Of a stretch of 52,023 nt of DNA, positions 19,367 through 45,944 are shown one piece after another. The number at the start of each line of letters is the position of its first letter. The first letter of the stretch is position 1. Under the pieces are notes generated by a model. That model saw only the letters and a list, made by a program, of their open reading frames with translations, was not told where the DNA came from and did not search any database. The DNA lies in NCBI GenBank assembly GCA_015501595.1, contig JADNRX010000377.1, positions 1 to 52,023 on the forward strand, written 5' to 3'. The DNA comes from Hymenopellis radicata. Its lineage: Eukaryota > Basidiomycota > Agaricomycetes > Agaricales > Physalacriaceae. A program made the translations under genes and the position numbers.

Positions 19367-19452
19367 ACACAGCGCATGCCTCCTCAAGAGTATATAACTC
19401 ATCTTACACTCTTCCTACAAAAAAGAGAGGCCTTACGTGTACGAGTACGCAA

Positions 19453-20588: not shown

Positions 20589-20635
20589 AATAAAGGTATC
20601 AATCACTCAGGGTAAAGCGATCATAAGAAACAGTA

Positions 20636-20783
20636 CTGTACTATTACAGGCAAGTCTTCACAGATTTTTGGAGAAAAAAATTGATGGAAACCCGATAAGG
20701 ATTTCCAGGCGATCGGCGGGGTCTGATAAGATTAAATGACCCCCCGTTACGCGTTATGCGAAGACCACACTGTAATAGTACAG
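20636..20783. mobile_element. TA-MITE 1 (CTGTACTATTACAG ends)
   Basis: A 148-bp element with perfect inverted ends CTGTACTATTACAG, flanked by TA on each side (20634-20635, 20784-20785). There is no coding capacity. TA duplication and short inverted ends fit a Tc1/mariner-type MITE. The ends resemble MITE 2 at 32850. Confidence 0.85.
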
Positions 20784-20825
20784 TATGTGAGTACTGCGTA
20801 CAGTGGAAATATGTCCCTACCAGTA

Positions 20826-22225
20826 CTAGTCGCTATCGGAATCATAACCCAACCAGCTATAATTTAGATCCTCCTGCATTGGAATGGAGGCTGCTCTTAG
20901 GCGCCTCCCATTATCTATGTCCCTTACTCTCGTTAGCACTGTGTATGTAATAAAAGAAACCCTCATGCGCTCATTCATCATCAACTCATGAACCCACTCA
21001 TACTCCTCTGGTATCACACTATACAGGTTCCTCAGTGACGTACTCCACATGTGGCTCCCTCCAAAGTGGAATGTTTCAAAAAGGAAGCAGTACTCAGCGC
21101 ATACTCCCATGGACGTGACGGCTTTAGCAAGAATGTGCCAACATCTGTGATCAATAAGGTTGATCATTTAGCCAACATCCGTCTGCAAGATAAACTTCTT
21201 CAAGCCAGGTGCCTTCAGGCGCTCCAGAAAGGATGTTGCACAACGAAGCACTTCGCTCTGGAAGTAAACCTGGATTTTCAAGCACGTGAGATTTGGTAGC
21301 ACTGGTCGTTCCCAAAGAGAGAAATCCCAGGGTAAACCGACTATCATTCATCAGCAAATTAAAGCCATTAACCAATAACAGGACTTACCTGTAAATCTCA
21401 CTGCAAAACGGTCCGCACTCGCTGCGTACCTCTTCATCAACATGCCCACGACAGGCTCATCCTGTTCAATCAGAGCTTCCATGCCTCCATCAGGACATGA
21501 TGTGACCAATTTGCCTATGGCCCCGCAAAGGTCAATAGACTGAATCATATCATCAGCCCATCCGCCCACATCAGCTCTGACTGTCTCGATGTTTTCGGGC
21601 AGTCTTAAATGGCGCAGCCAGCCGTGCTCAAATCGACACAGGAAGAACTCCAGCGTGCGAATGGCGTCATATCCGGTTATGAAGTTATGCACGTCTCTCG
21701 CGGTACCGCCACACTCTAACAGCACCAAAGTAGAGATGTTGCTGAAGGGCCAGCATTGCCGCGCTACGCCAAGATCCACGACCTCCAGCTCCAAGGCATC
21801 AACATGTGACAGGGACGAGCCAGCACTATCCATCGTCGCCACTAAAATATCTCCGCACCCGCGAATGTTCACGCGCCTGATGTAACGTACGAGTGCCGGG
21901 TACTTTTCTGTGAAAGCCTTCAGCGACTGACTTGATTGTCTGTTTATATGGCGCCCGTGTCGCTAGTCCCGGATCCCGACGTCAAGTAAGCTGTCCGGAA
22001 AATAATATGCTGAGTGGCTTCTTTCAGCCTGCGGTGAACGCCTCGCATACTCCTGGCAAAGTCTGCATCCTGAATGGAAGGTTGCTCCCGATGGTCCGTC
22101 ATGGCAAGCGTGAATATCTCCTCAAGAAGTTCTGTTGCTAAGAAGTCCCTGGAGCACTTGCGCGTCAATTCATCTAATAAAAACTCATGATGACACTTAC
22201 AAGCAATCACCATATTCCAACTCAC
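20826..22225 (-). pseudogene. F-box/LRR-like family protein (copy 3), decayed
   Basis: The first part (about 22200-21965) has an F-box-like stretch (RDFLATELLEEIFTLAM). The middle exon (about 21945-21412) is leucine-rich (FSNISTLVLLECGG, IRTLEFFLCRFEHGWLRHL). After a 47-nt intron come WERPVLPNLTCLKIQVYF and a last part ending YSWLGYDSDSD. Two defects are visible: between 21990 and 21950 the frame changes with only a weak donor (GTCGGG) to explain it, and an in-frame TAA at 21168-21170 interrupts otherwise continuous coding. Confidence 0.6.
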
Positions 22226-22329
22226 TCTTCATTTGTGTCCAGGAAGGTCCCTAGCTGCAATAGATATCAATCGGTAATCGATGAATGTCGCAAAGTAAGA
22301 AGTGTAGTAACGTACACGCAGCACAAGCC

Positions 22330-22400
22330 TCAAGTGCACGCCCATCTTCGAGCTCAGCGCGCGCACCCATCTTCGAGCTCCGCGCGCACGCCTATCCATA
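22330..22400. repeat. GC-rich direct repeat near copy 3
   Basis: The phrase GCACGCCCATCTTCGAGCTC followed by a GCGCGC word occurs twice with small changes, another example of the GCGCGCAC-type sequence that borders the F-box/LRR-like genes. Confidence 0.5.
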
Positions 22401-22708
22401 TGCGACGCTCATGTGACTCTCGAGTCTCAATCTATCTCTGAGCAATGCATAGGCTCGATGGCTCTACTAACAACAAACATGAATCATAGGTTTTCTAAGC
22501 ATCCTCCAAGTCTGGCTGCCACTTCTTCATTAATGCAAGGGCATTCTCCCACTGAGTTCGGCGCTCTGCATGCCACCTTTGCTGCTCCTCGCCACTCATC
22601 CTTTTGTAGTCCTCCTCCATGAATACCTTATCAGTTTTACACCCATTGTTTACATACCGAAAAAGGCCACCAGCAGTGACATCTCGAAAGGGCTATCTTC
22701 TATAAGGC

Positions 22709-22900
22709 AACTATAAGTATCTTAAGGCTCAATAAGCTGAAAAGCAGAAAAAGTCACTATAGACAAGGTTCAGCGATACATGTAATTATAGACACTCGAA
22801 GTGAATTGCAAGAGCACTACAAGTACCTACAAGTTAGTTCAAAAGCAGTCAAAAAGCAGATGATAGGCAACTTAAAGCAGATGTTTACTGTAACCTTGTC
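22709..22900. repeat. Left terminal/subterminal repeats of the Plavaka-type element
   Basis: The terminal 19 bp form an imperfect inverted repeat with the right end. Further in, related words (CTACAAGTACCTACAAG, GCAACTTAAAGCAG) resemble the right-end set, a pattern expected of transposase-binding sites. Confidence 0.6.
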
Positions 22901-22937
22901 CACGAAGCACTCCCAAAGCAGTGATAAGTCAACTATG

Positions 22938-23320
22938 GATCACTCTCCGAGTCTCTACTGAGTGTTCTCCACGTCTCTACCGAGCGTTCTCCACGTCTCT
23001 ACTGAGCGTTCTCCACGTCTCTACCGAGCGTTCTCCACGTCTCTACCGAGCGTTCTCCACGTCTCTACTGAGTCTCTACTGAGCATTCACCACGTCTCTA
23101 CTGAGTCTCTACTGAGCGTTCACCGAGTCTCTACTGAGCGTTCACCAGGTCTCTACTGAGCGTTCACCGGGTCTCTAACGGGTCTCTACTGAGCGTTCAC
23201 CGGGTCTGTAACAGGTCTCTACTAAGCGTTCACCGAGTCTCTACCGAGTCTCTACCAAGTGTTCACCCAGTCTCTACCGAGCGTTCTCTAACTCTCGACT
23301 GAGCCTTCTCCGAGTCTCTA
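22938..23320 (+). repeat. Minisatellite (GAGCGTTCTCCACGTCTCTAC type)
   Basis: About 15-17 units of roughly 21-22 bp in tandem. The left half is nearly uniform; the right half is shuffled, with TTCACCGAGTCTCTACTGAGCG variants and some short GTCTCTAC-only units. It is downstream of the DUF6532-like gene and inside the Plavaka-type element. Confidence 0.9.
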
Positions 23321-23642
23321 GACAGAGACTAAACTCAGGCTTAGACATCATACTAACAATGGCTCAAAGAATCACACAGAAATAATGGCAAAAGCTTGAT
23401 TCTATTATGGGTGATACTATCTACTGGTAACTACTGGTAAGTAATACTATTACTGGGAGACGACATAGAAGCAAACATAGGACCTAGACAGGCTCAGACA
23501 TACGGGTAGCTGCAAACTTCTCAAGAGACTCGAAGTCCAAGTCCCTCAAGGTGTCAGACAAGGGAGTCTCAAGCAAAAAAGTTTTGTTCGAAGCAATTCT
23601 GACAAAGGAATCAATAAGGAAAAATACAAGGTCAACCCGAAC

Positions 23643-26270
23643 TTACAAGACTTGTTTGAAGTTGCTGATCTTTATCATGCTAGCATAGTTCGGAGCCTTG
23701 GCCTCCAAGTTCTCCAATCCAGCCAAATGATGGAAGTACCGGCTTGCACAGTCCTCCTTGAAGTCGAGAGCCTTGAAGACACCCTCCTTCCACTCTTTCA
23801 GGCAGTGCTCAACCTAAAACCGAACTCAGGAATAATCTCTCAGAGCAGAACGAAGAGTACTCACCGCCGTCATGGATAGAGCCATCATGACATTCGGAAT
23901 GGTCTGAATCTCAAGGAGATGCCGGAAGATCTCGCTATCAGCCTTGCCGCGACCTTCGAAGACCATAGCACGAGGCATGGCCTCGAAAAATGCGGCGCCG
24001 AAGGGCGAGGACCTATCAAACGTGCGTTTCTAATGAAGGGTTAGTATTGCAACAGAACTACAGTCAAGAACACATACATGAAGATCCAGGCCCCCGAACT
24101 TCCAGCCTTCGGACTTCTCGAGCCAAGCGATGAGCTCTTGGCATTCGGCGGGAGTAAAGGCACCCGGGAGACCGAGGCTGCCCAACTGCGCCCGAGCCTT
24201 CATACGGAGCTCGTTCATGTAGTTGCCACGAACGTACGAAATCTAACAGATCCTTAGCTCTCTGCCAAATCTTCGTGAAGAAAGCACTTACCCATTGCAT
24301 GACCTTGGCCTTGTACTCGGGCGAAACCGAGAGGCGAGCCCACACATCCTTCGTCTCCGCATCGGCGTCGGGAGCAGTAGCGACGGATTCCATGACCTCC
24401 GCCACTTGCGGAAGACGATTCATCGTGCCGGGGTAGGGATTCTCCGTGCCAGTGACAAGGCGCAGCTTGCCCTTGCACTTGGCCGCGAAACGCTTGGAGC
24501 GCGGGGTGATGTCCTTACCCGTGACCTTGTACGGGTTGCGGATGACGGGGGCATCACCCTCATCGGCAACGTGGCGCTTACGCTTCTTGACCGGCGTAAC
24601 GAGCGACGCGTCGGACGCAGCCTAATCATAGTTAGTCATGAACGTGAATATTGAGAAGTCTGGACAACATACAATTGTGGAGGACGAGTCATCTTGGTCG
24701 TCGTCGTCATCGCTGAACGCACCAGGCATGTCGTACTCGCCTTCGGATTCATGGGCGCGCTCAACATCCTCATCGTCAGAGGGAAGTTCGGCGGAGGGAT
24801 GTCCGGGACCTAGCAACGTGTTAGTTCAAGCTAGAGACCTCAACGAGTCACCGAGTCACCGAGTCATCTGGTGACTCGACCCGCCTCGGGCACCTCGGCG
24901 TTCGCACTCGTGTGACTCGCGAGTCACGTACTCGCGAGTCCGGTCGCGGGTCTGAGTATCCATCTGCGGACCACGAGTCATCACACGATGACTCGCAAAT
25001 ATTTAGGTATGTATTTTATCTTAATTTACAAATTTTTAGCAACTCAAACGGACCCTTGCGTGGCTCAAACGAGCTATACGCAACAATTTCGCCAGATCCG
25101 GCGACTCGGGCCGAGTCCCGAAGCGACGCGTAAGCGTGCGATCGGGCAGATCTCTTGAGTTCTTCCTACCACCACGACCCGTTGCTCGACTGCAAGTCGG
25201 CAACGACGCTACTGGCACTCGACTTTAAGTCGGTGTCGACGCAACCGGCGCTCGACTTTGAGTCGGCGTCGATAGGAGACGACTTGAGACGACTTTGAGT
25301 CGTCTCCAGGATGCATAAGCCCGCCACGACCACCACGACCACCCAGGGAGCGACGATTGTCGCCCCTGCTGCTCTGACGATTGTCAGACAGCCTGTGGGG
25401 TGTTTCTGTGGCCTTGGCTTTGTGCTGGGCCTGCTGCTGCTGGCTCTGCGGCTGGCACTAGCCACAGCGGATGAGGACGACTACACTACGACCTGGACCA
25501 CAACGACGCCAACTGGATTACGGCGCCGATAAGGAGGAGGACGACAACGCGATGAGGAGCAGGAGATGAGGAGCAGGAGGATGACGCGATGAGGAGGACG
25601 ACGTGATGAGGAGGACGACGCGATGAGGAGGATGACACGATGAGGAGGATGATGCGCGAAGGACACGACAACTACCACCACCATCCTCCTACCATTATCA
25701 TTCTTCCACCACCACCACCACCACCCCCACCCCATCCTCATGCCCAGCTGACTGTCCCCGTGCCATTGCCCGGGGATGCTCGCTGCGCATGAATATACTG
25801 GGGTGGACTCGCGAGTACTCGTGAGTATCCGAGATGACTCGGACTCATGGCGAGTACTCACGAGTAGACTCGCGAGTCACCGCGAGTCGAGTCCGACGCG
25901 AGTCTGAGCAGGACCTTTTTTTACGTGAGTACTCACGTCACGAGTCGCGAGTCTGACTCGCGTCGGACTCGTTGAGGTCTCTAGTTCAAGCAAGGATGGA
26001 CATTCGCAACATACCCTCATAACCTGCATTCAAGGCCGCCAAGTCGGGATCCTCTTCCCGACCCATCTCCACGGCCCGTTGATGGACAGCTAACATGTGG
26101 TGAGGCCAGACGCATCATAAAGATAATTCCAACATACCCGCCGCCTTGACACGTTGCACAGCGGCAGCATCTGCGCGCTTACGCGCCGCTACCGCCTTCG
26201 CATTCGTGTTGCGAGCACCTGAGCGCTTAGCTACAGGTGCAGACGTAGACGAGGACTTAGCAGGGCGCAT
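23643..26270 (-). CDS. DUF6532-like protein carried by the Plavaka-type element
   Basis: ATG at 26270 opens a basic, Ala/Lys-rich N-terminus (VAARKRADAAAVQRVKAA). An acidic Ser/Asp region follows (DDDDDQDDSSS, about 24690). The conserved globular part is spread over short exons between about 24620 and 23643: NPYPGTMNRLPQVAEVMESV, YVRGNYMNELRMKARAQLG, PFGAAFFEAMPRAMVFEG and MALSMTAVEHCLKEWKEGV, ending at a TAA. The Y-x-RG, FF and A...ALxEWxxG pattern matches my memory of DUF6532, common near transposases in Agaricomycetes; function is unknown. hAT-like element A sits in an intron near the N-terminus. No stop was seen within the exons I could chain. Confidence 0.6.
24832..25983. mobile_element. 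hAT-like non-autonomous element A (GACTCG type)
   Basis: A 1,152-bp element with perfect 18-bp inverted ends starting TAGAGACCTCAACGAGTC and 8-bp TSDs GTTCAAGC (24824-24831, 25984-25991). Subterminal zones consist mostly of GACTCG/CGAGTC and ACTCGCGAGT words. The core holds CGACTTTAAGTCG-type palindromes (25188-25308), a TGACGATTGTCAGACAG block and GAGG/CACC triplet runs. It lies in an intron of the DUF6532-like gene, so it inserted into the Plavaka-type element. The long valine-rich or serine-rich open frames inside follow from the triplet repeats and are not taken as genes. Confidence 0.9.
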
Positions 26271-26499
26271 GGCTATACTGACTAGTCGATGAGATGGGGG
26301 GAAGGAATGAGAGAGAAATGGCTAGAGGCTGGGTTTATAAACCCAAGTACCGGGTACATCAGGGTAGCTGAGGTGGTCCGTGCGCTCACCCGAAATGGTA
26401 ACAACCCGATCACCCATATCGACGTCTGCTCACAAATAGTCGTTCGAATATGCAGCAATACAATAAACAAAATGAAATATTTACAAATAAAAATACAAT

Positions 26500-28720
26500 C
26501 TACGGTGTACTACAGTGAGGTAAGACCGGAGCACGATTGAAGACTCTAGCAAAGGTATTGATGAAAAGCCATGCTGTACGGTACTCCGCATCATCGTACT
26601 CCTCATCGGTGATCAACTGCTCCCTCGCCAACGATCTCATGGCTGCCTTCATGTTATCTGACAAGAAACACAGATCCGCATCCCACCCGCGCATGATGTT
26701 GCACAATGCCAAGCATGCCTGGGCTCGTTCGCGACGATGAGATGATGCGAACCCAATATTTGTCGGCGCATCTCGATCCGGAACGAGAGTACCACCAAAA
26801 TGGACTATGCCACTGAGGATAGCAGCCTCTCTATCTGCCCAAGTTGCAGCATCAAACTCGTCCCAACCCAATCCATCTCTATCGCGCAATTCGGATTCGG
26901 CCGGCTGTGGTTTGAGTGTGTAAAGCTAACGATCGACGGCTAGCAGATCTTGACGGAACCCAATCTCACAGAGCTCAAGAAGGATAGGCTGGATAATGCG
27001 GGGTGAAAGATTTGAGGCGTCAATGCGAATATTTTGATCTCTCCAGCATGTTGGCGCTGCAGAGAGGTTGGAAAGATTAACGGACCCCTAACGAAAGTTT
27101 CAGCAATCATATTGATTTGAGGCAAATAACAGATTTACCTGCATGTTGCTCTCGACGAGGCACTTAGTCAAGAGATCCTGCATGTTTTTGCGCCTCTCGC
27201 GTGATTTCGTCTCTTGAGTCGCAGTTGGCTGGTGCGTCTCCAAAGTGAGAAGGGAACGCCAATCCTCATTCCCAAGCACTCGAACAGGTGGAGCACGTAA
27301 ACGATACAGGAAAACATCACGTAGCTTCAGCCAGACTCGAAGCTGACCCGCAACGGTGTCTGGGCTGGCGGCGCTGACGAGGGAGTTGGGGTCTGGAATG
27401 GCATAGCCGCTAAAAAGCCCATGGATGGCCTTGTGCGGCTGGGATTGCTGACGTTGCTCTCCGACATGTCTGCTGGCGCGCGCCCACATAGGCAGACTCG
27501 GCGGCATGAGCGGGGAGTCAACATCGATAAATTTATTGCGGGGAGCGTGGGGTGGCGGTCGAGGCCGACTCGGCTGATATGGACTGGGGCGGTTCTTGAC
27601 TTTTTTGCTGACACGATTAGGGAGCGAGGGTGATGGAGATGGTCCAGGTGGAGCGCCAGATGTAGAAGATGATGCGGTATTGGAGACGGAGGTAGAGGAA
27701 GACGTGGTGGGGACGATGGGGGAAGAAGACCATACCAGTTTGTGTAATCGCACCGTACCATATGCAGACATTATTGCCGTTGTGAGCTCATACATTGCAC
27801 GGTATCGTGAAGCATCGTGCGCACTGCCTTCGAAAATGACGGGATATGGCGGAGTTTCATCGTCAAAGGAGACACCAATTGTCTTGCCTTCTGATGGAAT
27901 AGGAAGATTTTCATCTAGCCATTCACGGACATATAGGTCTGTGGCGAGCTCTGTTGGACGAACGAGCCAAACGGGCACACCAGCCTAAAAACAGGATATG
28001 AATGAAATATAGATAGAAATGCGAGAGCAAAACATACCCGGTACAAGTTGTCGCATACCGCCAGATCTGTAGTAAGTGCTCCAACGACAGGAAGGACATC
28101 GTTCGAAGCATCTAATCCCTCTCGAATGCGTTGCCGAACATCGATTAACCATGTCATTCGCGCTTGGAGCTCAAGAGCGGCGCGCCCGAGATTGCAAAAT
28201 GCCATGCAAGATTCCATAAACGACGCGACTAGCGCAAGGCGGCCCTTTAACCATGGTATGCGATGCATGAGGGTAGAGATGAACATATCATTTCGAAGGG
28301 ATCGCCCGTCTGCATCAGGCTGGCGCGCAGAGGCCTCCACAGCGCGCACTGCCTGTTTGCGAATAGATTTGACTGCGGTGGTAAGGAATTTCGGAGATCT
28401 TCCTTGATGCGGCCAACGTCTTGGGCGGCGCCAGAGGAGTCCAGAGGGATAAAGTCGTCTAGGGTTGGAATGAACCATAAAGAAATGCTCTGCGCTGTGG
28501 CGGCGTTAACGTGTGGGATGAGGGCAAGGTGTGGTGCGTTGGCGTAGTAATATTGGGGGCAATGAAGGGGGTCGTCTTCGCCGAAGTGCAAATCGCGCCT
28601 CAAGCGGACTGAGCGCGGCTCCAGGAGGGGATCACATATATAATTTGCGTTGGGGGTGGTGATAAAGATGCCATTGGAACGAAAATGTCTTCCCCACTCG
28701 CCCTCGTAAGAACGCGGCAT
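26500..28720 (-). pseudogene. Second companion gene of the Plavaka-type element, broken
   Basis: Start ATG at 28720 (MPRSYEGEWGRHF). The first part is SNGIFITTPNANYICDPLLE and HCPQYYYANAPHLALIPHV. Exons then run to 28038, 27983-27139, and from 27087 to the stop at 26500. The central exon has a Ser/Pro-rich linker between GVPVWLVRPTELATDLYVRE and VWLKLRDVFLYRLRAPPVR. Two breaks are visible: a 1-nt frame change near 28390 (LRNS to LTTAVKSIRKQ) and an in-frame TAG at 26926-26928 between LLAVDR and LYTLKPQ. It runs opposite to the transposase gene, head to head. I recall similar proteins near transposases in Agaricomycetes but know no function. Confidence 0.6.
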
Positions 28721-29427
28721 CGGCGGCGGCGGTGTCGAATATACAGTGAACACAAGGTTACACTATCAATAGACACCACAACACAAGGTTAATGGTGAAT
28801 TCGGATATGACTTGATGGCGCGCCAATGCGGTGGTGAGTGCCGATGGAAAAAGATAAGTGAACCCGAGGTGCAACTGGTCGATCGGAGCGTGGGAAACTG
28901 TTTCCCACGCTCCAGCCTGCTTGCCTGTTGGACGACACCATGTTGAACGACCCCCACGGACGACCACGGACGACCCCCACGGACGACATTTGGACTCCAA
29001 ACTCGCTTAGATTCGCTCTAGCGATGTAGCCTCACTTAGACTTGTTCCAGTGAGCGCGTCCTCCGGACTTATATCGCCGCATTCTTGATTTTTGGAATTC
29101 TTTTTGGCCACTTATCTTTCGATTCATTCGCAGTACCACTGTACCGTTTTAGCTACCATATGGAACCTTTCTATTTATCCTTCTCTTTCTTGACTGTTCG
29201 TTCATTTCATGTGGTACATATTTTTACAACGCCACGGACTCTTTACCTAGCATATGGAACACTCCTTCCAATTCGCTCCCATTTTTCCGTATCTATAGCT
29301 TGACCAATCCGAACTATTTCCGCGTATTTTATCGCGTATTTTATCGCTGTCCACTGCAAAATCCCCAGGCCTTTCATCGCCAGCTCTCCCTAACTTCTCT
29401 CCCTCTTCTGCTATTCGACGTGCAACT
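28721..29427. promoter_or_regulatory. Divergent intergenic region, companion gene versus transposase
   Basis: About 700 bp separate the head-to-head starts at 28720 (minus) and 29428 (plus), so promoters for both should lie here. It has GACGACC-rich direct repeats (28930-28990), a duplicated CGCGTATTTTATCG (29321-29348) and a CT-rich stretch before the transposase ATG. No further gene was seen. Confidence 0.45.
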
Positions 29428-32400
29428 ATGGCTCCCAGAACCCTTGTTCCCTGCGAAAACCCTGCCTGTGATCGCATGTTCGTGACATCTGGCGCCATGA
29501 AGAGTCACCTACGCCAGGCAGCGACGTGTCGCGGATACACCAGCCAGGGCAAGACTCCCGAACATCTCGCGGCTCATCTCGATGCCATTGTCACCGTTGA
29601 AGACGCTTCCTCATCCAGCGCTGTTCATTCCCATGCCGACTCTGAGTCTCTATTTGCAGATGACGGTTACGAGGATGCCAGCGTCAGCGACGATGCCAGC
29701 GACGATGGAAGCCAGGATGCATCTACACATACATCAGAGGATGCCATGATGGACGAGGATGAGGATGGGGTGGCAGATCAGGAAGGCAATGATTGGGACG
29801 AGGAGGAGGATGAGGAGGAGGATCCCGGCGCTGTATTTCGTGAATGGCTAGAGCACGCTCAAGCGACAGACGTGTTCGAGGGCGTCGACGACTCGGAGCT
29901 TGGGCAGGCCGGACCAGGGCCTACCACTCAGCGACTTCGAATGGCACAGATGCTTGGGGGTCGTGCTCGCTATCTAGACGATGACGAAGACGATGAGACC
30001 TCCGGTCGTTTTCTCAAAGTCCATTCCCTAGATGCCGGCACTGTTTTCCGCATGTCGCAAAATGTGCACGAACAGTGGGCTTCGTTATTTGGTACGCCCA
30101 TACCTGGCGATGTCGAGATGGATGGAAGCAGTACTCCGGACTTCAAGGATGTCGAGTGGTGGAAACCGTTCGCATCCGAACTCGATTGGAATATTGCACG
30201 GTGGATGGTTAATGAAGGGATTGGGCATAATGCCTTTAATGAGCTGATGGCCATTCCAGGAGTACGTGGACCACTTTGTTTCCTTTATATTTATCCTAAT
30301 GACTTCGCCTAGGTAAAAGAAAAACTCGGCCTATCGTATGGGTCGACCAAGCAGCTTCATGATGTCGTTGACTCTGTTCCGCGTCGTGCAGGCTCTTGGA
30401 AAACGAAGCATCTCACCTTTGCTGACCGGCCCAACGAAAAATTCACTCTGCGTCACCGACATATCCTCGATGCCATTCGCAGTCTCTGGGGCGATCCGGA
30501 ACTCACAAAATATCTCGTATTCCAGCCGGGTGAACTTCATGCTGACAAGACGTGCTCTCGGCGACTCTATAACGAGATGTGGACTGGAAAATGGTGGTCT
30601 TTCATCCAAGTACGTTCTCTCCGTGCATTTCTACCCAGTGTATCTAATTCTCAATAGACGAAACTGCCTGCGGGTCATACTCTTGCGCCGCTTATCTTTT
30701 CAACCGACAAAACCCAGCTCACGCAGTTCTCCGGAAGTCGCCAGGCGTATCCCGTTTATTTGACGCTCGGTAACATCCCTAATCGTCTTCGTCGCAAGCC
30801 GAGTGCCATGGCGTCAATCCTGGTAGCGTATCTCCCTGTTGATAAAATGTCCAAGGGCCGAATTTCGAAACGGGACATGGGCTCCCGTTACCAGCGCCTG
30901 TTTCATGCGGCAATGGCACACATCATGGAACCGTTGAAGGAGGCCGGACAGAACGGTGTAGAGATGACCAGTGGTGACGGGGCTGTCAGAATGGTCCACC
31001 CAGTGCTCGCGAGCTACGTCGCGGATTATCCAGAGCAATGCTTGGTGACATGTGCGAAGTATGGGACGTGTCCAAAGTGTAGAGTTCGTGTGGATAAGTT
31101 GGGAGACCCACTCGACGGGGTTGCCATGCGCACTCCAGATTGGACTCTCGATATTATGTCGTGTGCGCGTGCAGGTACCAGCTCCAAAACTGCGTACTTT
31201 GATGCCTGCATGGCGCAGGATGTTTCTGGCCATGTGCCGAAGCCGTTCTGGGCAGGTCTTCCTCACACAAACATTCATCTCAGCACCACTCCCGATGTTC
31301 TCCATCAGCTGTATCAGGGAGTACTCAAACATCTTATCAGTTGGTGCCAAAGCGTCCTGACGGAGGCCGAACTGGATCGTCGCATTCGTTGTCTACCACG
31401 CGCACTGGGTCTGCGCCACTTCAAGAATGGTATCAGTGCCCTGTCCCAAGTCAGCGGAACAGAACGCAAGAACATGGGGAAGATTCTACTAGCGTGCTTG
31501 GTGGGAAGTCCTATGACAGAGAGTGGGATCACGGCATGTCGCGCCATTCTAGATTTCATCTACCTGGCCCAATATTCTACCCACGATGACGAAACGCTCA
31601 AGTACATGGACGATGCGCTTAATACGTGGGATGCGAACAAGGGCTATTTCCTTCGAGTTGGGGTGCGCGACCACTTCAACATTCCCAAGCTGCACTCCTC
31701 CGCCATTACGTAGCCTCCATTCGACTTCTCGGGACAACGAACAACTTCAACACCGAAATGTTCGAACGTTTGCATATCGATTTCGCCAAGAAGGGCTGGC
31801 GAGCGTCTAACAAACGTGACGAGTTTCCGCAGATGACTCAGTGGGTGGTGAGAAAGGAGAATGTTCATTCCTTTGAACGATACACCGTGTGGGTCAAGAA
31901 ACAACTTCGTACGTGTTTTATTCATTCAAACTGAATCTCCCGTGAACAGTTTTTAGTTCCTTCGTCATCACGCAAGACTGCTGCTACACCTTTTGTTCCC
32001 CTCCTCTATCGCAGGTACCAGTCGCCATCATCCGTAGTAGCGCTCGAACTCCTATTCCGACCACTATTATTCCTCAATCAGCCCCCACGCCTCGCAGCGG
32101 CTATATTCAAGACGTTTCGCTTCCTAAAAATCCTACAGTTCCCAATAAACCTCTGGCTCGCATCGCCAAACAACATCATGTACCAAACTTCGCAGCGCAT
32201 CTGCTGCAGTACATGAACGCGGTGGGGCGGGACACGCGTGGTGTAAATGCGATGGAGTACCCATCTCTACCGTTCAATGGTCTCGACGTATATTACTGTT
32301 TCAAATTTGGTCGAGAGGGTCTTACCGATGATTCCGAGGTTCGGGATGTCGTGAAATGCTCGCCTCTGGACGGCGGTTGTTTTGACACTGTTGTCGTCTT

Positions 32401-32886
32401 AACAGATGATGGAGCTGAGAGTGCTGGTCTCGATGGTAGGCTGTTCCAAAGACTACTTGATTCTATCACTAACTCTTGATATCAGGAACTCGTATTGGTC
32501 GCATTCGCGTGTTGTTTCGTATACCTGCAGTCATGATGATGCATGGGCTCCCAATCCCAACCCCGAAGCACTGGCCGCGTAGTCCGCTTGCGTACGTCGA
32601 ATGGTACAAGAAGCCAACACTCACGGACAAGGCGCGACGATCACACAACATGGCATCAGTGTCGAAGGCCTTCGGGGCTGATGGGAAGCCGCTTTGGTCA
32701 ATCGTTCCCTTGAGCAACATTCGACAAACTTGTCACCTTAGTCCGGACTTCTCTAAGAACGATAGTAGTAGCTGGGATACGACAACATCGCATGACTGCG
32801 TCTTAGATACATGTAAAGATTTTCTACTTAACAACTGGCTTAGTCTGTACTGTACTATTTCGACCTTATCTTCGCATAACGCGTAA
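29428..32886 (+). pseudogene. Plavaka-type transposase, frameshifted
   Basis: Exons 29428-30261, 30313-30609 and 30658 onward. The N-terminus has a zinc-finger-like CENPACDRMFVTSGAMKSHL, then a long acidic region. The conserved core includes STDKTQLTQFSGSRQAYPVY, LTLGNIPNRLRRKPSAMASI, LASYVADYPEQCLVTCAKYG with CPKC, and TTPDVLHQLYQGVLKHL. Near 31691-31703 the frame shifts: LHSSAIT-stop where the next frame continues HYVASIRLLGTTNNFNTEMF, consistent with one lost base. Coding then continues in scattered frames (MEYPSLPFNGLDVYYCFKFG; MMMHGLPIPTPKHW). MITE 2 interrupts the 3' end at 32850. Plavaka transposases mobilise large TIR elements in basidiomycetes; this copy should not make a full protein. 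Confidence 0.8.
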
Positions 32887-33104
32887 CGGAGGCCTGTGAA
32901 ATGAAGAGTTAAGGGTACCATAATGCATAACGGCCAAAATTGGGCCCCAGGTAAGGCCCAAAAAGGAAATTTTTCAGCGTGGCGGCTATTGCCGCCGCTC
33001 CCGCCTGCCCATATAAGGAAATTGGACCCTGAATGAAGAGTAACATCTGTGAAGAGTATGCATAACGCATAACGCCCCATGAAGACAAGGTCGAAATAGT
33101 ACAG
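32850..33104. mobile_element. TA-MITE 2 (CTGTACTATTTCGACC ends)
   Basis: A 255-bp element with inverted ends CTGTACTATTTCGACCTT(A/G)TCTTC and TA on both sides (32848-32849, 33105-33106). Inside, GCATAACGC words occur near both ends in inverted order. It is inserted in the 3' coding end of the Plavaka-type transposase and is therefore younger than that element. Confidence 0.85.
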
Positions 33105-33194
33105 TATACGTATCAGAGTATATATATGGCATAGACATAGAGTAGTCCCTGTATATGCGGCGTAGACTTGGTGTATGTGTGGCGTGGACTTGAA

Positions 33195-33305
33195 TGCATA
33201 GTGTTAGTTGAGTCATCGTGTCGTGTCGAGTCGAGTGATTGTGTCGAGTCGAGTGATTGTGTCGAGTCGAGTGATCGTGTCGAGTCGAGTGATCGTGTCG
33301 TGTCG
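33195..33305 (+). repeat. Minisatellite (GTGTCGAGTCGAGTGATT type)
   Basis: Four to five copies of an 18-bp unit with T/C and CGA/CGT variants, close to the right end of the Plavaka-type element. With the array at 22938 it places one minisatellite near each end. Confidence 0.85.
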
Positions 33306-33319
33306 GTCCCTGTATGTGT

Positions 33320-33616
33320 GGCGTAGACATATTTAAATATAAGGTATTTTAAGTTGACTATAGATTCTGGTATGTAAACATGAAGTTTTAAGCGAACATA
33401 AGCGACAGCAGTCTGTGCATATACCTATAGGTGCTGTTGAGCGAACAAAAGCAATGACAGTCGGTATGTGTACCTATAAGTGCTTTTTAGCATCTTAAGA
33501 GCTGTGACTGAGCAGTATCTGCTTGCATACAACTTTGGGAGCTTTTTATGCTTTAAGTTATCTTGGTAGCTTTAAGTTACATGTATTACGAACATTACCT
33601 TAAAGTACCTAAAAGT
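33320..33616. repeat. Right terminal/subterminal repeats of the Plavaka-type element
   Basis: Non-coding, with repeated words around ACCTATAGGTGC/ACCTATAAGTGC (33425-33485) and TTAAGTTATCTTGG/TTTAAGTTACATG (33555-33580), ending in the imperfect inverted copy of the left terminus. Confidence 0.55.
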
Positions 33617-34332
33617 TATAAGGCCTTTCCTGATGGAAGTGCACCACAGAGTCATGCTCCTCTCCTTCCCTTACCGCAACATTGGAGTGAGTTAAAAGTG
33701 CAGACGGTAAAAGTATCGTGGCGCCGGGCGGAAACCGAATGACCAAACTAAGATCCCACAATATCAGATGGCCACCAAAGACAGGGTCGAAATCTCCTAG
33801 TGCAGGAACAGCACACCAAGCCCATGCGAGGTTTCCCTAGTCAGTGTGTGGCCAAGTCACACCCTGGTGAGCATGATTGGCACGGCTTCCTCTATTCAGC
33901 GTCCTTCCAGCCCAGAAACCCCCAGGGATCCCTCCGGTAAATGGGTCATCCAAATGTGGAATGGTCGTAACAAGCATTCGCAGGCTATCCATGCACACAC
34001 GGTAGATATCCGGTTGATAAGTCCGAAATAGAACTATGGGCACAGTTAATTTCACACAAACCTCAGTACAGACGAAACTCACAGTCAGCCCATTGAGCAA
34101 TTCTCGCAAGTCCTGGACAGGACAGAGTCTCCTGCAAAAAAGGTACTTCCTCTGGGTGTTGACGGAGAATGGAGGGCTCAGTTTGACCACCGCCATATGA
34201 TACACCCATGGTCCGCTCTTTACATGGACCGCGGCGGTGTGAATGAAAGGGAAGGGCATCCATGACGCGTCGAAGAGTGGCTGAAGCCATCGACAGTCTT
34301 TGGACACTGTTGGATGCTTAAGATGAAATGCT

Positions 34333-34563
34333 ATGCACTGGTAGCAATACCAGTGCATAATAACACATAACATGGCACAGCATGTAGCAGGTTATGGGGA
34401 GGGCACCCCACAGGGGATGCCCTGGGCCCCGACAGGGAGACTCCGGTTGAGGCAGTCAGCCGCGAGGGTGGGTGGGCCCATCGCGGCAGTTCCCCCCCAG
34501 GGCAACGTAGCAAAGCATTGAGACTTAACTAGAGGTTAGTTAAATACAACTCTCAGTCTCAAT
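34333..34563. repeat. Two short palindromes bracketing a ~230-bp stretch in the dioxygenase gene
   Basis: ATGCACTGGTA-GCAA-TACCAGTGCAT is a perfect 11-bp-arm palindrome at 34333-34358. ATTGAGACT...AGTCTCAAT has 9-bp arms at 34517-34563. Between them lies GC-rich sequence with no coding resemblance, in a position separating two conserved exons. It could be a small inserted element or a long intron; no TSD is obvious. Confidence 0.4.
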
Positions 34564-34983
34564 CTTATATAGGGATGGGAGGGAGGGAAAAAACAAAGCT
34601 GCGGGTGCCAGCTGACCGCCGTGGAGTCAGCGCGCCCGACTTTCTCTGACGCGACGACGACCGTGATGGAGGAGCGGAAGAGAAAGAAATTGATCGCATC
34701 ACTTACGTGTCCGAAGACCTCAGTTTGCCCTCCCTCGTGCCTCAGTCTGACAAACTTACAATGCACCGGAGAAACTGAGACCAGTCTGCTTGCCAGGCTG
34801 ATCTGCGGGACGTCCACCAAGGAGAGCGATAATGCGATTTGACGCGTCCAGGATTGGTCGCGTTGTGCTGCGAAACTGGTTTCAATACGCGTTTACTCAA
34901 GTAAGAAACAACGTACACTCCATCCCATTCAATAAGCCGCATCCCAGGGATAGCTAATACCTCAGCCAGTGTAGGAATGATAC

Positions 34984-36216
34984 TAGAGACCTCAACGAGT
35001 CGTTTGCGAGTCAGACTCGTGACTCGTGACGTGAGTACTCACGTAAAAAAAGGTCCTGCTCAGACTCGCGTCGGACTCGACTCGCGGTGACTCGCGAGTC
35101 TACTCGTGAGTACTCGCCATGAGTCCGAGTCATCTCGGATACTCACGAGTACTCGCGAGTCCACCCCAGTATATTCATGCGCAGCGAGCATCCCCGGGCA
35201 ATGGCACGGGGACAGTCAGCTGGGCATGAGGATGGGGTGGGGTGGTGGTGGTGGTGGGAGTGAGAGTGGTGGTAGTGGAGATGGTGGTGGTGATGATAGT
35301 CCTGGGTGAGGACGACACGTCGTTGTTGTCTTCGTTAGCGGGTCTCGCATCCACATCACCGCGTACCGCATCCACATCACCGAGTCCCGCATCCACATCC
35401 CCACATTCTCGCATCCTTCGGCAGTCGTCGTCGTCCGTTGTGGTCGTGGTCGTGGTCGTGGTCGTCGACGTGTGGTCATGGTTGTTGGGTCGTTGTCGTC
35501 CGTTGCTGCTGTCATAAAGACAGCAGCAGCACATCCGGCACAGAGCCAGATAACAAATCCACAGCCTAGAGGCTGCCTGACAATCGTCAGAGCAGCGGGA
35601 GCGACAATCGTCACTCCCTGGGTGGTGGTGGTGGTCGTCGTGGTGGTCCAAAAGAAAGAGATACCACTCGATCAGACGCTGACGCGTCGCTTCGGGACTC
35701 GGCCCGGATCGCCGGATCGGGCAGGATAATCGCCCACGTCTCGTTCTCGAGACGTTGCAGACCATTTGCTCTGCAGAAAATTGGTAAATTTAGTTTAAAT
35801 ATATATCTAAATACTGTACACTTTAATTCAATTCGTCGGTCACGGGTCACAGGCGATCCGAAATCGACGAAAAGTCACAGCGGTCACAGCGAAATTCTCA
35901 AAAAAATCGTCGGCGGGGCCCCCGCCAGCCTCCCGACGCAGCTCCGCCGCGGCGGGAATTACCATATATGGTAATTCGTCGAAACCATAATTTCGTCGGA
36001 CCGGTCACAGGTCACATGGCCCGACGAATTGAATGAAAGTCTACAGTATTTGCGAGTCATTGTGTGATGACTCGCGGTCTGAAACCCAATACTCAGACTC
36101 GCGCTCGGACTCGTGAGTACGTGACTCGCGAGTCACGCGAGTGCGAACGCCGACGTGCCCGAAGCGAGTCGAGTCACCAGATGACTCGGTGACTCGGTGA
36201 CTCGTTGAGGTCTCTA
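34984..36216. mobile_element. hAT-like non-autonomous element B (GACTCG type) with nested MITE
   Basis: A 1,233-bp element with the same 18-bp inverted ends as element A (TAGAGACCTCAACGAGTC) in opposite core orientation, flanked by 8-bp TSDs AATGATAC (34976-34983, 36217-36224). Subterminal zones again consist of GACTCG words. The core shares CCCCGGGCAATGGCACGGGG and the TGACAATCGTCAGA block with elements A and D. Removing it plus one TSD joins DFSRI to IPTLAEV in the dioxygenase gene without a frame change. MITE 3 lies inside. Confidence 0.92.
35814..36046. mobile_element. TA-MITE 3, nested in element B
   Basis: A 233-bp element with inverted ends CTGTA(C/G)ACTTT(A/C)ATTCAATTCGTCGG and TA on each side. 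The uninterrupted site is present in element A (CTAAATATTTGCGAGTC on its minus strand), matching CTAAA-TA / TA-TTTGCGAGTC here, which demonstrates insertion with TA duplication. Its ends are close to MITE 4 at 43747. Confidence 0.92.
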
Positions 36217-36697
36217 AATGATACGCGAAAAATCCAGAGTGCGCCCAATCCAACCAGGTGTGGTGATTGGTGCTGTCTCCAGGTCGTACTCATCAATGCA
36301 AATAGTATTCTTCATGGCACTCCGCACGTGAGTCTGGGTGACGCATTTCGCAGTTGATGATTCGGCTGGTGAGGACAAGGATGGAGTCGTCCGGATGTTC
36401 CTCTTTTCGCGTGTTCGGAGGTTGCGGCGCCTATTATAAGGCTCGCGTGGAGCCGTTGATGGTTGATCGGAGGAGGTCGAAGCTTGGGGAGGTGCTGAAG
36501 CACGGGTGTGAACCGCGGAAGACATGAATGAGTAGGCGCGTTGAAGAATGTTCTTGACTTTGACGCCGTTTGGTATGGTGCCCAGATCATGATCAGGCTG
36601 ATAGGGAACATCCTCGTCTGCATGGGGGTCTATCGTTGACGCCCCAGAGCCACGGACTAGCTGCGAGGCCAACGAGACTGCACTGCTCACTGCGCGG

Positions 36698-37764
36698 TAG
36701 ACCTGGGCACGAGTGCCCACCCGGGTGCACTCGCACTCGCGGGGCGGGTCATTCGTGACTCAGAGCCCGACACCCGCACTCGAGTGACACCCGAGTGTGG
36801 CACTCGAGTGCGGCACCCATTCGCGGGTGTTTCGCGCACCCGGGTGTGCCGACACCCGTGTATGGTGGCGGGTGTACACGGGTACACCCACACTTCCAGC
36901 CAACTCATGCCACACTTGCATCCCCAGCAATTGCGAGGGGAGCAGCAGTGGTGCATGATGCGGCGTTGGTAGTGCGGAGGTGAGGAGATGGAGGAGGGAT
37001 GGGATCGTGGATGTGGCGCCTCGTTGGAGGGCTTAGCCGTGCACTGTGGTAATACCTGTAAATAATCAGCATTGACGGCGTCTGTAAACGCCGCCACCAG
37101 TGAAGAAAAAGCGTACCAACCCGCCACGTCACCAGCAGATGACGTGGCGCCCAATATCCGCCGCCCCCGTTCTTCAAGCACGCTGTGCAGCGTGGCGGGT
37201 GGCGTCTACTCCCTGTAGTATGCAGACGCCGACTCCAAGTGGAGCGCCGATAGTCCCGCTGCCTGTTTGCGAGGGCTTACGCATCCAGCAGATAGCGTAT
37301 CCATAGAGACGACTTGAAGCCGTTCTCCAATCAGACAGACGCCGACTTAAAGTCGAGCGCCGGTGTCTTCATTGCGACTCAAGGTCGAGCAATGGTGGCG
37401 GCAGTAGTGGTGGTAAGAGTTGAGAGCAAAACAACTGGCCGATCGCACGCTTACGCGTCGCTTCGGAACTCGGCCCGAGTCGCCGGATTCAGAAAAATTA
37501 GTGTATATGGCTCGTTTAGCGGGCACAAGGCCCCGTTTAAATTGGAAAAAATTCGAAAATTAAGTTTAAATATATGTCTCGATTGTCGAGTGTTTACACG
37601 GGTGTTTGCGCACGGGTACTCATGGCCCAAAGCCAGACACCCGCACTCGGGTGGACACCCGTGCCAACACCCTACCCGGCACTGCCAAACACTCGACACC
37701 CGGGTGTGAGTGCCGAGTGCACCCGGGTGCACACTTAAACACTAGACACTCGTGCCCACGTCTA
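36698..37764. mobile_element. hAT-like non-autonomous element C (CACCCGGGTG type)
   Basis: A 1,067-bp element with ends TAGAC(C/G)TGGGCACGAGTG inverted and 8-bp TSDs CTGCGCGG (36690-36697, 37765-37772). Subterminal zones are full of ACACCCG, CACCCGGGTG and GCACTCG words. The core shares CCCCAGCAATTGCGAGGGG with element E, CGACTTAAAGTCG palindromes with element A, and CGCACGCTTACGCGTCGCTT with A, B and D. Removal plus one TSD joins DASWMSRAV to SSAVSLASQ in the dioxygenase gene in frame. Confidence 0.9.
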
Positions 37765-38092
37765 CTGCGCGGGACATCCATGATGCGTCCTGAACCTCGC
37801 ACACAGCGTCAAGCGTAGGTGCCACGTCGAATGGGAAAGGACCACGTATAGCATTGCCACGGAGAATGGAGAACGGCTTTCCAGACCTTGTCCTAGCCTC
37901 GGGAAGGTCTGGGTCTTTGAAATAGTCACCATTTGCAGACTTGGTCAGTGCTAGGTGTTTTGTCAGCTGCAGGCAGGACACATTGAGAGGACACAAACAA
38001 CATCTACAAATGTCTACGACAGACGTTGTCGCTGGAAGCGAGCTCAAAGGTCGGCTCGCTGTCAACAGAGACGGCGCTAGCAGTAGAACCAT

Positions 38093-38415
38093 GCGGATCT
38101 TGTCAGTCCAGCCCCAGCAATGGACTCACCCTTCGGCATGATCAAACACTGCAGGAGTATGAGCAATAGGACAACGATGACACATAGCCACAGTCTCCTC
38201 ATGGGTGTCGAAAGCAACTGGCAATGAACATACAGTCAAACATGTAAACACAACCTTAAAGGAGCACAATCTGGTCACGGGACAAATTGGATGTGCACGG
38301 CGGCCTCACACGAGGACGCGCGCGCTGCGTCTGCAATTTGACGTGCACTCCCACTGTACTTTCCGACGCGGGGCTTCGTCAGATATCTCCAAACACATCT
38401 ACCAAAGCAACATCT
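38093..38415. other. Short non-coding gap between dioxygenase gene and copy 5
   Basis: About 320 bp separate the presumed dioxygenase 5' end and the 3' end of the next F-box/LRR-like gene. It contains GAGGACGCGCGCGCTGCG-type sequence (38308-38330), like the other GC words near this gene family. Its promoter role is inferred only from position. Confidence 0.35.
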
Positions 38416-39700
38416 TCATTTGTGCCACATCGATACAGACTCCTCATGTATTGTCACATACTCGAATCTCACGCTCTCCATGTCTTCGACATGCCCAGCC
38501 GCATACATAGCCGCTATCAAATCCCTCAAGCTATCGTTCCCTGCATCGCCAAACGCCGCACCATGTTTACTGCCGTAGACACCCACCTAGGTCACCAACA
38601 CGTTTACTGGCCTCGGGAGCCAAAGCGTGAAGGTATCCCACAATAAAGAAGCCTCTGGTTGTGTCGAACGAGCTCTTAGCACGCCAGAACTAACCAAGAC
38701 ATATAGGTCCACGTCCTTGATCGTCGTAACATGCCGAAGGCTACGCATCGCCTGATACATAGCCCTTGAAGATCCAAAATTGAAGTCCATACGAATAGAC
38801 TTCAGAGATGTCCAATGTGACAAGTCCAGCGTGTGGACCATCAAGCCGTAGCCAGAGCATGAGTTATCTAGCATTCATTAAACCAAGCTGCGAACATGGC
38901 GTGAACACAGACCTGTCAAGCTCAGCTCAAAACATGTTACGCCACTCACACCACTCAATAGGTGGCCCAAGAATCCCAATGTATGTAGGCGGCCTTGGTT
39001 GCATACAACGTGTACTCATTGCGTCACAATCGCCACATGCCTACGATCATTCTGCCGCACAGCAAGGCAATATCCATCTGTCCAGAAGTGCCTCAAAGAA
39101 ATGGAAAGTCTCTCCACCATCACGGCTGGTGTGTGCTCGTCAAAAGCCAGCTCACAGGCTGCCAGCAGCGTCAACTCCCTCAACTGTGGCATCACCATAG
39201 CAAGAGCGCGTAGGTCGCTACCAAGGCCCCAGCAATCGCAGAGTCGCAGATTCGTCCAATGTAACGGCAAAGGGCCCAGGTTGGTCAGTTCCCTTAGCGG
39301 CACGCCAAAAAGATCTATAGTGTTTACGGCCGGACAAAGCCTCGACACTTCTGGCAACATCACCAGCGATTCAGACTCGTGGAAACCAAAACGACGAACT
39401 GCGCGTGAAATGTCGCCACACTCCAGCAGCTCCGAGAGGCGCGTCCAGGGATAACTCGGATGTGGTTTCCAATCTGTGGCCAAGTCAGGAAAGGGTACTC
39501 CTCGCCTACTCCAATTGGAGCACAGGACAATGGTCTCGAAGATGACTCGTCGAGCACAACGCTAAAAGCAGCGATGAACATGCAGTAGAGCAAGGGCTGT
39601 AGTCCAGGTCTGCTCTAGGGGATATTGTTGAGTGAACCCATCGCTGGGACGCAATGCTTCGGTTCCGATCAGATCCACAATGTCCTCAGCAATGTTAAAT
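38416..39700 (-). pseudogene. F-box/LRR-like family protein (copy 5), decayed
   Basis: From about 39700 the frame reads FNIAEDIVDLIG (F-box-like), ALLHVHRCF, then an in-frame TAG at 39562-39564, then RCARRVIFETIVLCSNWSRR and on through HPSYPWTRLSELLECGDISR and RAVRRFGFHESESLVMLPEV. The stop falls inside a segment aligned to the intact LLKTNRILGHEARKALFKMI of the copy at 42 kb. Further exons are LDLSHWTSLKSIRMDFNFGS and, after another frame change near 38590, a tail ending EESVSMWHK with stop at 38416. It is clearly paralogous to the next copy but inactivated. Confidence 0.65.
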
Positions 39701-39779
39701 CTAGAGTCATAGTTAGTTTATACTGTAATGAAACCAAAAGTACTTGCGGTGTCTTTGATCGCTGCATGCTAATGGCTTA

Positions 39780-39845
39780 AGGCAACCGCCGATGTCACAA
39801 CCACTGATGTCACAACCGCTGATGTCACAACCGCTGATGTCACAA
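39780..39845 (+). repeat. Four-copy 15-bp tandem repeat
   Basis: GATGTCACAACC(G/A)CT is repeated four times between copy 5 and the 3' end of copy 4. Confidence 0.85.
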
Positions 39846-39886
39846 TGTTACTAGTAGTAGAGTACAACATCATAGCAGTTAGATGG

Positions 39887-42283
39887 TCAAAAGACCCGGC
39901 CATTCCAGTGCCACATCGATACATCTCCAGCGTGTACATAGTCTTGTCGAACACTCACTCTCGCAGGGTATTGCGCCTGAACACGCTCCCCTGTACTGAC
40001 AACGCGCCTCCACTCTTCCTTATCTAGACAGAACATCTCGTTCATGAACCCTTCAACCCACACCCAAACAACATTCAAACAACCACCTTGTTCTACCACC
40101 GCCACCATCAATTTCTCCAATGATACCCGGGTCGCATTAGTCTGGGCGACACTCTTCTCGCCAGTCGTTTGTAGGAATACCATCAAATGAACACTCTGCA
40201 ATGACGCTCCCCTTAGAATGGTGTTCAGCGTTCGAATAATGGCGAATGCAGTATGGTAATGGAAGCACATTTTGATATCAGTGAGAGCGTTCCAATGGTC
40301 CAGGCGGGGCTCCATCGTCAGCCAATCATCAATTGTAGGGGAATTTTCTGCAAACAACTTATTAGTTCAACTCCAAGCGCATAGTAGTCTGGCATCTACC
40401 GGTCAGATTGACATCCAAGCATTCCACGCCAACTACGCTTTTCAAAACTCTATCCAGCCCGCCTAGTTCTCCGTGCGCTGTGACGATCTCAACTTTACGC
40501 GCCCATACAGCCACATGAACATTGGATGATTGTTCTGAATTAGAGACCTCAACGACTCAAATCCGGGTCAGATCCGCGATCCATCACACGAGTACCCGTG
40601 GCCAAAACTGCCGATCCGCGATCCTTATCTGATCCGACCCGCCACGGATTACGGATCAAGACGAGTCGGATCGCCGAGAACGCCGAGCGGATCGAGTACT
40701 CGAGTAAACTCGAGTATTCCACACACCCAAATCCATTCATGCCCGACGAGTATCCCCGGGCAATGGCACGGGGACACTCAGTCGTGCATGATGCAGACTG
40801 AGGGTGGTGGAAGGTGATGATGGATGGTGGTGATGGTGGAAGTGAGAGTGGTGGTGATGGTGCGGGCAGTGAGGGTGGTGGTGGTAAGGGTGGTGGTGGT
40901 AAGGGTGGTGGTGGTAAGGGTGGTGGTGGTGTTCGTGTCAGTCGTCGTTGGAGTCGGGTCCATCAGCGCGCTCGTCTCACCACCGCATCGACGCGTCCAT
41001 CAGCGTGCTCGCGTGCTCGCGTCAACGCGTCACCTTCATCCCATCCGCATCCCCACATCGCCATCCTCGTTGTCGTGTCGCCATTCGTCATCCGTTATCC
41101 GGGAGTTGTCGTCGTCCAAAGTCGGCGCCGTGGTGAAAGTCGTCCGCCTCTGCTGCTGTCACAGAGACAGCAGCAGCGGGTCCGGCACAGAGCCAAGACC
41201 AAAATCCACACTCCAGAGGCCCCCTGACAATCGTCAGAGAGGCAGTGGCGACGACCGTCGCGCACTGGGTGGTCGTGGTGGGTGGTGGTGGTAAGAGGAG
41301 GAAAGAGAAACCATCCGATCGCACGCTTACGCGGCCTCTCGGCGTTTGCCGGATCGTGAGAATTGACAAGAAATTCTCGCGCACGTCTGTTCTGGGCGAC
41401 GCATGGGCCCGTTTGACTTCAAAAAAATTTGTAAATTAAGTTTAAATATATAGCTAAATATTCACGAGTCAACACGAGTACTCGCGACGAGTACTCGTGC
41501 CTCCAGAGCTCGATCCGCGATCCAAGTGTGATCCGACCCGCCACGGGTCTACGGATCAAACGGATCGGATCTCCGAGATGCCCGAGCGGATCGAGTATGG
41601 GTAAACCCGTGTGATCCGTTGACTCGTTGAGGTCTCTATTCTGAATACTCATCGGTGACGCCCCAATGCCTTGTTGAGTGGACCAACAAAGAGTCCACGT
41701 GAATCGGCGTGCAATGTCCCAATCCAATCCTCGTTTTCGGCAACAAAGTCAGCCGTGATAAAAGCGGTATCACTGTTTTCAACGCCTGCCAATCATTCGT
41801 AGCACCAGTACAGCACCCTATGCATAGCTCCTTTGGTCCCTGCCACACATGCCTACTGTCTATAGTGGCAAGGTCAACCGCCAGCAGCAAGACTCGCTGT
41901 ACATTCGGGCAACCAGAAGCAACGGCTGGCATTCGAGTCAGCGTCGACGTTCCATAGAAGCCGAAATGGCGGACAGCAGTGCGAATAGCCTCAACGGAAA
42001 GCATCTCTCGAACCACCGTCCATGGATAACCGCGTCCTGGACTGCACGGCAAAGGCAGTTTGTTGTATTCCACCCGATCGCATTCGTCCACTAGCATAAT
42101 CATCTTGAACAGGGCTTTTCTGGCCTCGTGGCCCAAAATACGATTGGTTTTCAAGAGGATTGTCGCGGTTTTTCGAGCACTCGGGCTGTCGCGGAATGTG
42201 CTAGTCGTAGCATACACATCTAGGCCATCCTTGTCGACCAGGGACCAGGCGACAATCTCATCAACCACCTCTTGAGGTATCAC
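39887..42283 (-). pseudogene. F-box/LRR-like family protein (copy 4), split by a hAT-like element
   Basis: The right part (42283-41639) starts with an F-box-like SVIPQEVVDEIVAWSL and contains RKTATILLKTNRILGHEARK, the SPGRGYPWTVVREMLSVEAI block shared with copy 5, and leucine-rich sequence to GVTDEYSE. Element D (40541-41638) follows. Coding resumes at 40540-40400 (VHVAVWARKVEIVTAHGELG) and, after a GTAGAT...CAG intron, in 40349-39887, ending DVSMWHWNGRVF. With the element and one TSD removed the frame runs through the site without a stop, so before insertion this copy was probably functional. The first coding exon upstream of 42283 is not resolved. Confidence 0.7.
40541..41638. mobile_element. 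hAT-like non-autonomous element D (GATCCG type)
   Basis: A 1,098-bp element with inverted ends TAGAGACCTCAACGA and 8-bp TSDs TTCTGAAT (40533-40540, 41639-41646). Subterminal zones carry GATCCG/CGGATC and GATCCGACCCGCCACGG instead of the GACTCG words of elements A and B, although the terminal 15 bp are the same. The core has the ACAGCAGCAGCGGGTCCGGC block, TGACAATCGTCAGA, GGTGGT runs (40800-40945) and AAATTAAGTTTAAATATAT as in the others. Confidence 0.92.
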
Positions 42284-45900: not shown

Positions 45901-45944
45901 ATGCACTATTTGTTAATGGCAGCAAGATGAACGTACGAGCAGAA

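Follow-up and report, generated by a model that had tools for sequence, protein, structure and literature searches.

In mushrooms, TET/JBP-like genes have expanded and are linked to transposons, which may exploit, capture or merely litter them. Among the closest described systems are the TET-positive DNA transposons of fungi, among which, in the available text of the report, the TET-positive Plavaka elements are all PlavakaB (PMC12730594). Here we describe a TET-like gene interrupted by DNA transposons in Hymenopellis radicata, a mushroom of decayed wood according to the accessible part of PMC8480192. The window, meaning the whole 52,023-nucleotide stretch analysed, is contig JADNRX010000377.1 (C715 in our numbering of contigs), one of 1405 contigs in the 75.5-Mb assembly GCA_015501595.1. 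No report of this locus was found in the literature, in searches that did not use the gene name as a term. Its sequence is probably best read as methylation-type C-to-T decay that came first, with a stop codon after the HxD motif, followed by transposons that for the most part likely arrived later, in an already broken TET/JBP-like copy.

The TET-like gene lies on the minus strand, from a first clear coding exon starting at 37966 to a stop codon at 22495-22497; exons upstream of 37966 are uncertain. Its pieces have sisters at 97-99% identity on three other contigs, C753, C517 and C1193. The last of these ends within the gene, so that it covers the gene in part only, and overlaps C753 over 2415 bp at 99.6% identity; C753 and C1193 are probably a single haplotype and C517 a second. 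A paralogue of the C753 gene on C665 served as outgroup for the direction of C-to-T changes. The C753 gene is open for 544 codons from the first clear exon, through the recognised exons, and a database protein is 100% identical to it, the database model (P0001, 352 residues) beginning later. The window copy carries a nonsense codon, CAG to TAG, at 33837-33839 (minus strand), directly after the HxD motif (HTD), at a position that is codon 417 of the C753 model and reads CAG in both C753 and C517. The window differs from C753 at 19 coding positions, one of which is common to C517 and C1193 and was set aside; the remaining 18 window-specific changes are 12 missense, 1 nonsense and 5 silent (13/18 non-silent, where about 70% is expected without selection). 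Between C753 and the C665 paralogue, over 188 codons, the nonsynonymous rate dN is 0.18 and the synonymous rate dS is about 2.5 by LWL85, NG86 being undefined. The window copy is a broken TET-like pseudogene, dead by its nonsense codon as well as by its insertions. The gene pieces and the elements in and around them are given below (TSD, target-site duplication).

14499..47236: block shared with C517 and partly with C753 and C1193, a C-to-T-biased copy
22495..22679, minus strand: 3' end of the TET-like gene (TAGGLFRYV to the stop), 95% amino-acid identity to the last part of the C753/C517 exon
22680..33635, plus strand: Plavaka-type DNA transposon, 2-bp TSD GA at 22678-22679 and 33636-33637, ends CATC..GATG
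24832..25983: hAT-like non-autonomous element nested in the Plavaka element, TSD GTTCAAGC, terminal sequence TAGAGACCTCAACGA as in hAT1
32848..33106: 259-bp terminal-inverted-repeat element nested in the Plavaka element, inverted ends
33636..34297, minus strand: TET-like gene, comprising the exon with HxD and the distal His, one intron and a portion of the exon before it
34298..34762: 465-bp repeat splitting an exon, class unassigned, TSD none or imperfect (ACAGT/ACAAT)
34763..34983, minus strand: TET-like gene piece of exon, 49-bp intron and exon, 99% identity to C753
34984..36216: hAT1, non-autonomous hAT-like, 8-bp TSD AATGATAC at 34976-34983 and 36217-36224, many relatives
about 35814..36046: repeat of about 233 bp nested in hAT1, inverted ends, bounds approximate
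36217..36697, minus strand: TET-like gene, middle part of the long upstream exon, 98% identity to C753
36698..37764: hAT2, non-autonomous hAT-like, 8-bp TSD CTGCGCGG at 36690-36697 and 37765-37772
37765..37966, minus strand: TET-like gene, start of the first clear coding exon, conserved in the reading frame of the C665 paralogue

All four insertion sites in the gene are empty in C753 and C517, with 0-1 mismatches over the joined 35-40-nt flanks, so that the flanking pieces are contiguous there; both hAT sites are likewise empty in C1193, and the empty site of the 465-bp repeat is exact in C753 and C517. An initial annotation of this DNA had placed two hAT-like elements, each with its own TSD, exactly where they are found. 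It had also named a large element with bounds 22709-33616 and TSD ATAAGGC, a candidate that was discarded once the empty sites were aligned, ATAAGGC lying inside the element. A phase-0 intron proposed before VTAGGLFRYV gave way to a read-through inside one exon, the Plavaka site in C753 being mid-exon and reading SVVHF/TAGGLFRYV. The three insertions counted then are all present, but the fourth (34298-34762) and three nested elements had been overlooked; and removal of the inserts does restore the frame, which carries no evidential weight because it is expected of any clean insertion.

The decay of the block was read from comparisons with the sisters. Over 16123 sites compared with C517, the window shows 127 C-to-T differences, 20 T-to-C and 32 transversions, and 86 of the 127 are in CpG context; against C753 the counts are 71 C-to-T and 10 T-to-C. 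With C665 as outgroup, 28 C-to-T differences in the gene region divide into 18 derived in the window, 3 derived in C753, 4 undecided and 3 without data. Two control comparisons are symmetrical, window 6571-12083 against C974 (3 and 3) and C753 against C517 (12 and 11). Changed CpG cytosines number 18/247 in the gene and 68/1743 in the rest of the block (P 0.019), compared with 1/702 in the C974 pair and 3/1252 in the C753-C517 pair. By these sequence comparisons the C-to-T bias is located on the window copy, not on the sisters, and its mostly CpG-to-TpG character likely reflects deamination of 5-methylcytosine (5mC). In mutation catalogues 5mC deamination prefers ACG; here the changed CpG cytosines rank as ACG (35/515), GCG (27/671), TCG (14/458) and CCG (10/346).

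The Plavaka element, hAT1 and the 465-bp repeat were dated against siblings elsewhere in the assembly. Relative to its C485 sibling, the Plavaka element has 2/274 CpG cytosines changed over the 2.0 of about 11 kb that the comparison covered, a level that differs from that of the gene (P 1e-4). One of 190 CpG cytosines is changed in hAT1 relative to its C169 sibling and 1/48 in the 465-bp repeat relative to C636, with 1 or 2 changes each for five more loci of this repeat, two of them on the same contig. That the siblings are themselves equally decayed is disfavoured, because few independent changes are seen where changes in both directions would be expected. As these three inserts are nearly undecayed and the block is decayed, decay of the block before the arrival of these elements is the most parsimonious order. 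An extra TET-like copy would have been silenced and methylated, selection on it would have lapsed, a stop codon would have arisen in the unselected copy, and later insertions into the dead copy would have been free of cost. In the initial annotation the gene was viewed as a repeated landing site, through target preference or relaxed selection. A lapse of selection is retained as a putative step of this sequence of events; taken as a whole, the locus looks more like a presumably methylated graveyard than the result of a targeted attack. Four of the six large window-only insertions fall in the gene, which is 12.3% of the aligned backbone (binomial P 0.0028; 4/7 and P 0.0058 when a 144-bp insertion is counted), values that apply to a region picked for its cluster.

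Several observations weigh against decay of an extra copy before insertion. The limited span compared for the Plavaka element is one; another is hAT2, which is outside the dated set and may precede the decay. The decay runs over the whole block and is not confined to the gene, nor is it raised within 500 bp of insertion edges (39/822 CpG cytosines vs 47/1168, P 0.44). The nonsense change itself sits at CpA, not CpG (CCA context, 11/669). The C517 gene has four one-base coding indels, all within short homopolymers, and C1193 has three small coding indels in the part covered, one in a homopolymer, so that openness is demonstrated for C753 alone. Furthermore, the window, C517 and C753 lose mutual similarity at nearly one left point, 14499-14504, and transversion divergence between window and C517 (32 in 16123) does not clearly exceed the values of the control pairs (11 in 10030 and 9 in 5507), so that an extra copy and an allele are not told apart by age.

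It is conceivable, though on balance doubtful, that the window is an allele of the C517/C753 locus carried by the other nucleus and that there is no extra copy. Divergence apart from C-to-T changes is about as low as in the control pairs, and the block runs collinear with C517 from 14499 to 47236. Nevertheless, C517 and C753/C1193, which differ by a 5-kb insertion and 34 substitutions in 10030 sites, look like two haplotypes already, which would make the window a third. In addition, the left flank of the window (6571-12083) matches C974 at 99-100%, and neither the gene nor its right flank found a match on C974 among the best candidates listed. It is from this left-flank match that we infer an extra copy; the window right of 47236 is a multicopy repeat. 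The sequence of the flanks thus favours an extra copy over an allele. The left breakpoint falls at window 14499, C517:32377 and C753:35330, with three unrelated left flanks, and a related unit of 337 bp, containing a 54-bp minisatellite, is likewise found on C1231.

The intact protein is predicted to be a TET/JBP-like dioxygenase that oxidises a methylated base in DNA. Its AlphaFold2 model (predicted local distance difference test score, pLDDT, 92.4) has a double-stranded beta-helix fold that by structure comparison is nearest to TET/JBP enzymes, the top matches being CcTET, NgTET, TET2 and CMD1, then FTO and AlkB. Homologue searches found 184 proteins, of which the best 120 were listed and 39 aligned. 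The HxD...H iron triad (H222, D224, H275) is kept in at least 90% of the 39, and R286, the putative downstream Arg of the TET/JBP type, in 39/39. By sequence the family is elusive: P0001 matches no Pfam family at E<=1, PF12851 (Tet_JBP) included; 15/39 aligned homologues match PF12851, weakly (best E 9.5e-7); and no oxygenase was found in PDB either with one exon as query or with the 39-member profile. The earlier assignment to the TET/JBP-like genes holds for fold and iron triad, with a Pfam match limited to some of the homologues. Gly331 and Asp337 of CcTET (AG type, borne by Kyakuja/Zisupton elements) correspond here to Asn227 and Cys233, in a register set by sequence and not by superposition, and the PE-type HxE is not present, the family having HxD; by these published hallmarks the protein is, on its sequence, neither AG nor PE type. 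That it is instead a 2-oxoglutarate- and Fe(II)-dependent (2OG-Fe(II)) oxygenase with a target other than 5mC in DNA, its link to methylation being coincidental, is a possibility to which we give a minor share, considering that the DNA-5mC oxygenases lead the structural matches. With the last exon as query, the assembly yielded 68 matches at E<=1e-3, window and sisters counted. Three further loci (L001-L003, on C391, C1362 and C699) match PF12851 just under its cut-off; the C391 exon is similar to CcTET at the sequence level (E 6.3e-8) and represents a separate TET-like subfamily of this genome.

Less probable is an order in which transposons came first, one insertion such as hAT2 killing the gene, with spread of methylation, decay and more insertions to follow. 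This order would draw on the absence of hAT2 from the dated inserts and on the stronger decay of the gene relative to the rest of the block, but the three dated inserts are almost undecayed (4/512 CpG cytosines) and decay is not raised near insertion edges. A duplication-triggered burst like repeat-induced point mutation (RIP), in place of slow 5mC deamination, is similarly unlikely: several copies of the locus exist and the bias is strong given the low divergence, but a single copy was mutated, C753 and C517 being symmetrical, and ACG is the favoured context, as opposed to TCG in Pucciniomycotina and CpA in ascomycete RIP, as given in the accessible parts of PMC4352252 and PMC12730594.

As for the elements themselves, the Plavaka transposase domain PF18759 lies at 30337-31347 (E 5.1e-100). 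PlavakaB is defined, in the available text of PMC12730594, by a 2-3 bp TSD and CATCA..TGATG ends; the window element, with CATCT..TGATG and TSD GA, agrees with PlavakaB, its left end one base off. No TET gene was recognised inside it, by searches that PE-type genes would escape, and seven of its open reading frames (ORFs) tested had no match in Pfam. Its accessory ORFs 24067-24621 and 27103-27984 (minus) match nothing in Pfam and have hardly any homologues beyond the species, searches with the two returning 1 unnamed protein and none. The nested 259-bp element, missing from two sibling Plavaka elements (C485 and C504), has many copies elsewhere in the assembly; the 465-bp repeat has further copies on several other contigs. 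Both hAT1 and hAT2 show 8-bp TSDs and short terminal inverted repeats, as in the hAT superfamily, and because no hAT transposase was found in the three ORFs of hAT1/hAT2 searched, the assignment is made from their ends alone. In relatives of hAT1 that lack the repeat of about 233 bp, element position 830 is followed directly by 1064. Another element, the third to have the hAT1 terminus TAGAGACCTCAACGA, lies at 40541-41638 (TSD TTCTGAAT), absent from C517 and C1193, and an insertion at 16419-17815 with GTGAACAG inverted ends and a target duplication of about 9-11 bp is absent from C753 and C517.

Elsewhere in the window, 4553-5416 encodes a MULE transposase domain (E 1.2e-9), 6571-12083 holds F-box-like and P450 genes that recur in tandem on C974 in several more diverged copies, and 47237-52023 is a high-copy repeat up to the contig end, near 99-100% identical to several contigs. 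An Rfam scan of the window gave 0 matches at gathering score. In the wider family, a second member at C1132:10401-14100 (L049) is interrupted as well: an element of about 2.8 kb, which has inverted ends and an apparent 7-bp duplication (CCTTGCC), divides the same exon. Carriage of the family within KDZ/Plavaka elements was also considered. Of the 13 contigs with members at >=60% identity (window included), at least 3 others have a KDZ/Plavaka domain within 10 kb, as judged by eye, and none within 5 kb among the matches listed.

The interest of the locus is in the readable order of events more than in the insertions themselves: the empty sites of the sisters give the ancestral state, the C-to-T changes a clock of silencing, and the young elements the time of insertion. 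The mechanism is already known; seeing it combined with a TET-like gene is useful as a test case. We would entertain, as a speculation with rather low odds, that a gene for a 5mC eraser fell to the same mark that its product removes, an extra copy being recognised and methylated, then deaminated to an active-site stop, and only afterwards colonised by transposons, including a PlavakaB of the lineage that in other cases carries TET genes. If true, methylation-driven decay would limit the number of the expanding TET-like genes in mushrooms. The three-way test by sisters, C-to-T changes and inserts is applicable to other interrupted members of the family.

Compared with CcTET of Coprinopsis cinerea (PDB 8jkk, 7w5p, 7vpn), the family described here has no detectable sequence match, the reported recognition residues Gly331/Asp337 are not kept in register, and the window copy is broken. 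The CpG-to-TpG decay resembles that of basidiomycete transposons, ascribed to 5mC deamination in the accessible part of PMC4352252; whereas transposons carry the mark in that account, here it is a low-copy gene block that is marked, and the young transposons inside it are nearly spared. With the TET-positive transposons, as far as the available text of PMC12730594 describes them, this locus shares the enzyme superfamily and the PlavakaB lineage, but the arrangement is reversed: there the TET gene lies inside the transposon, and here the transposon lies inside the TET-like gene.

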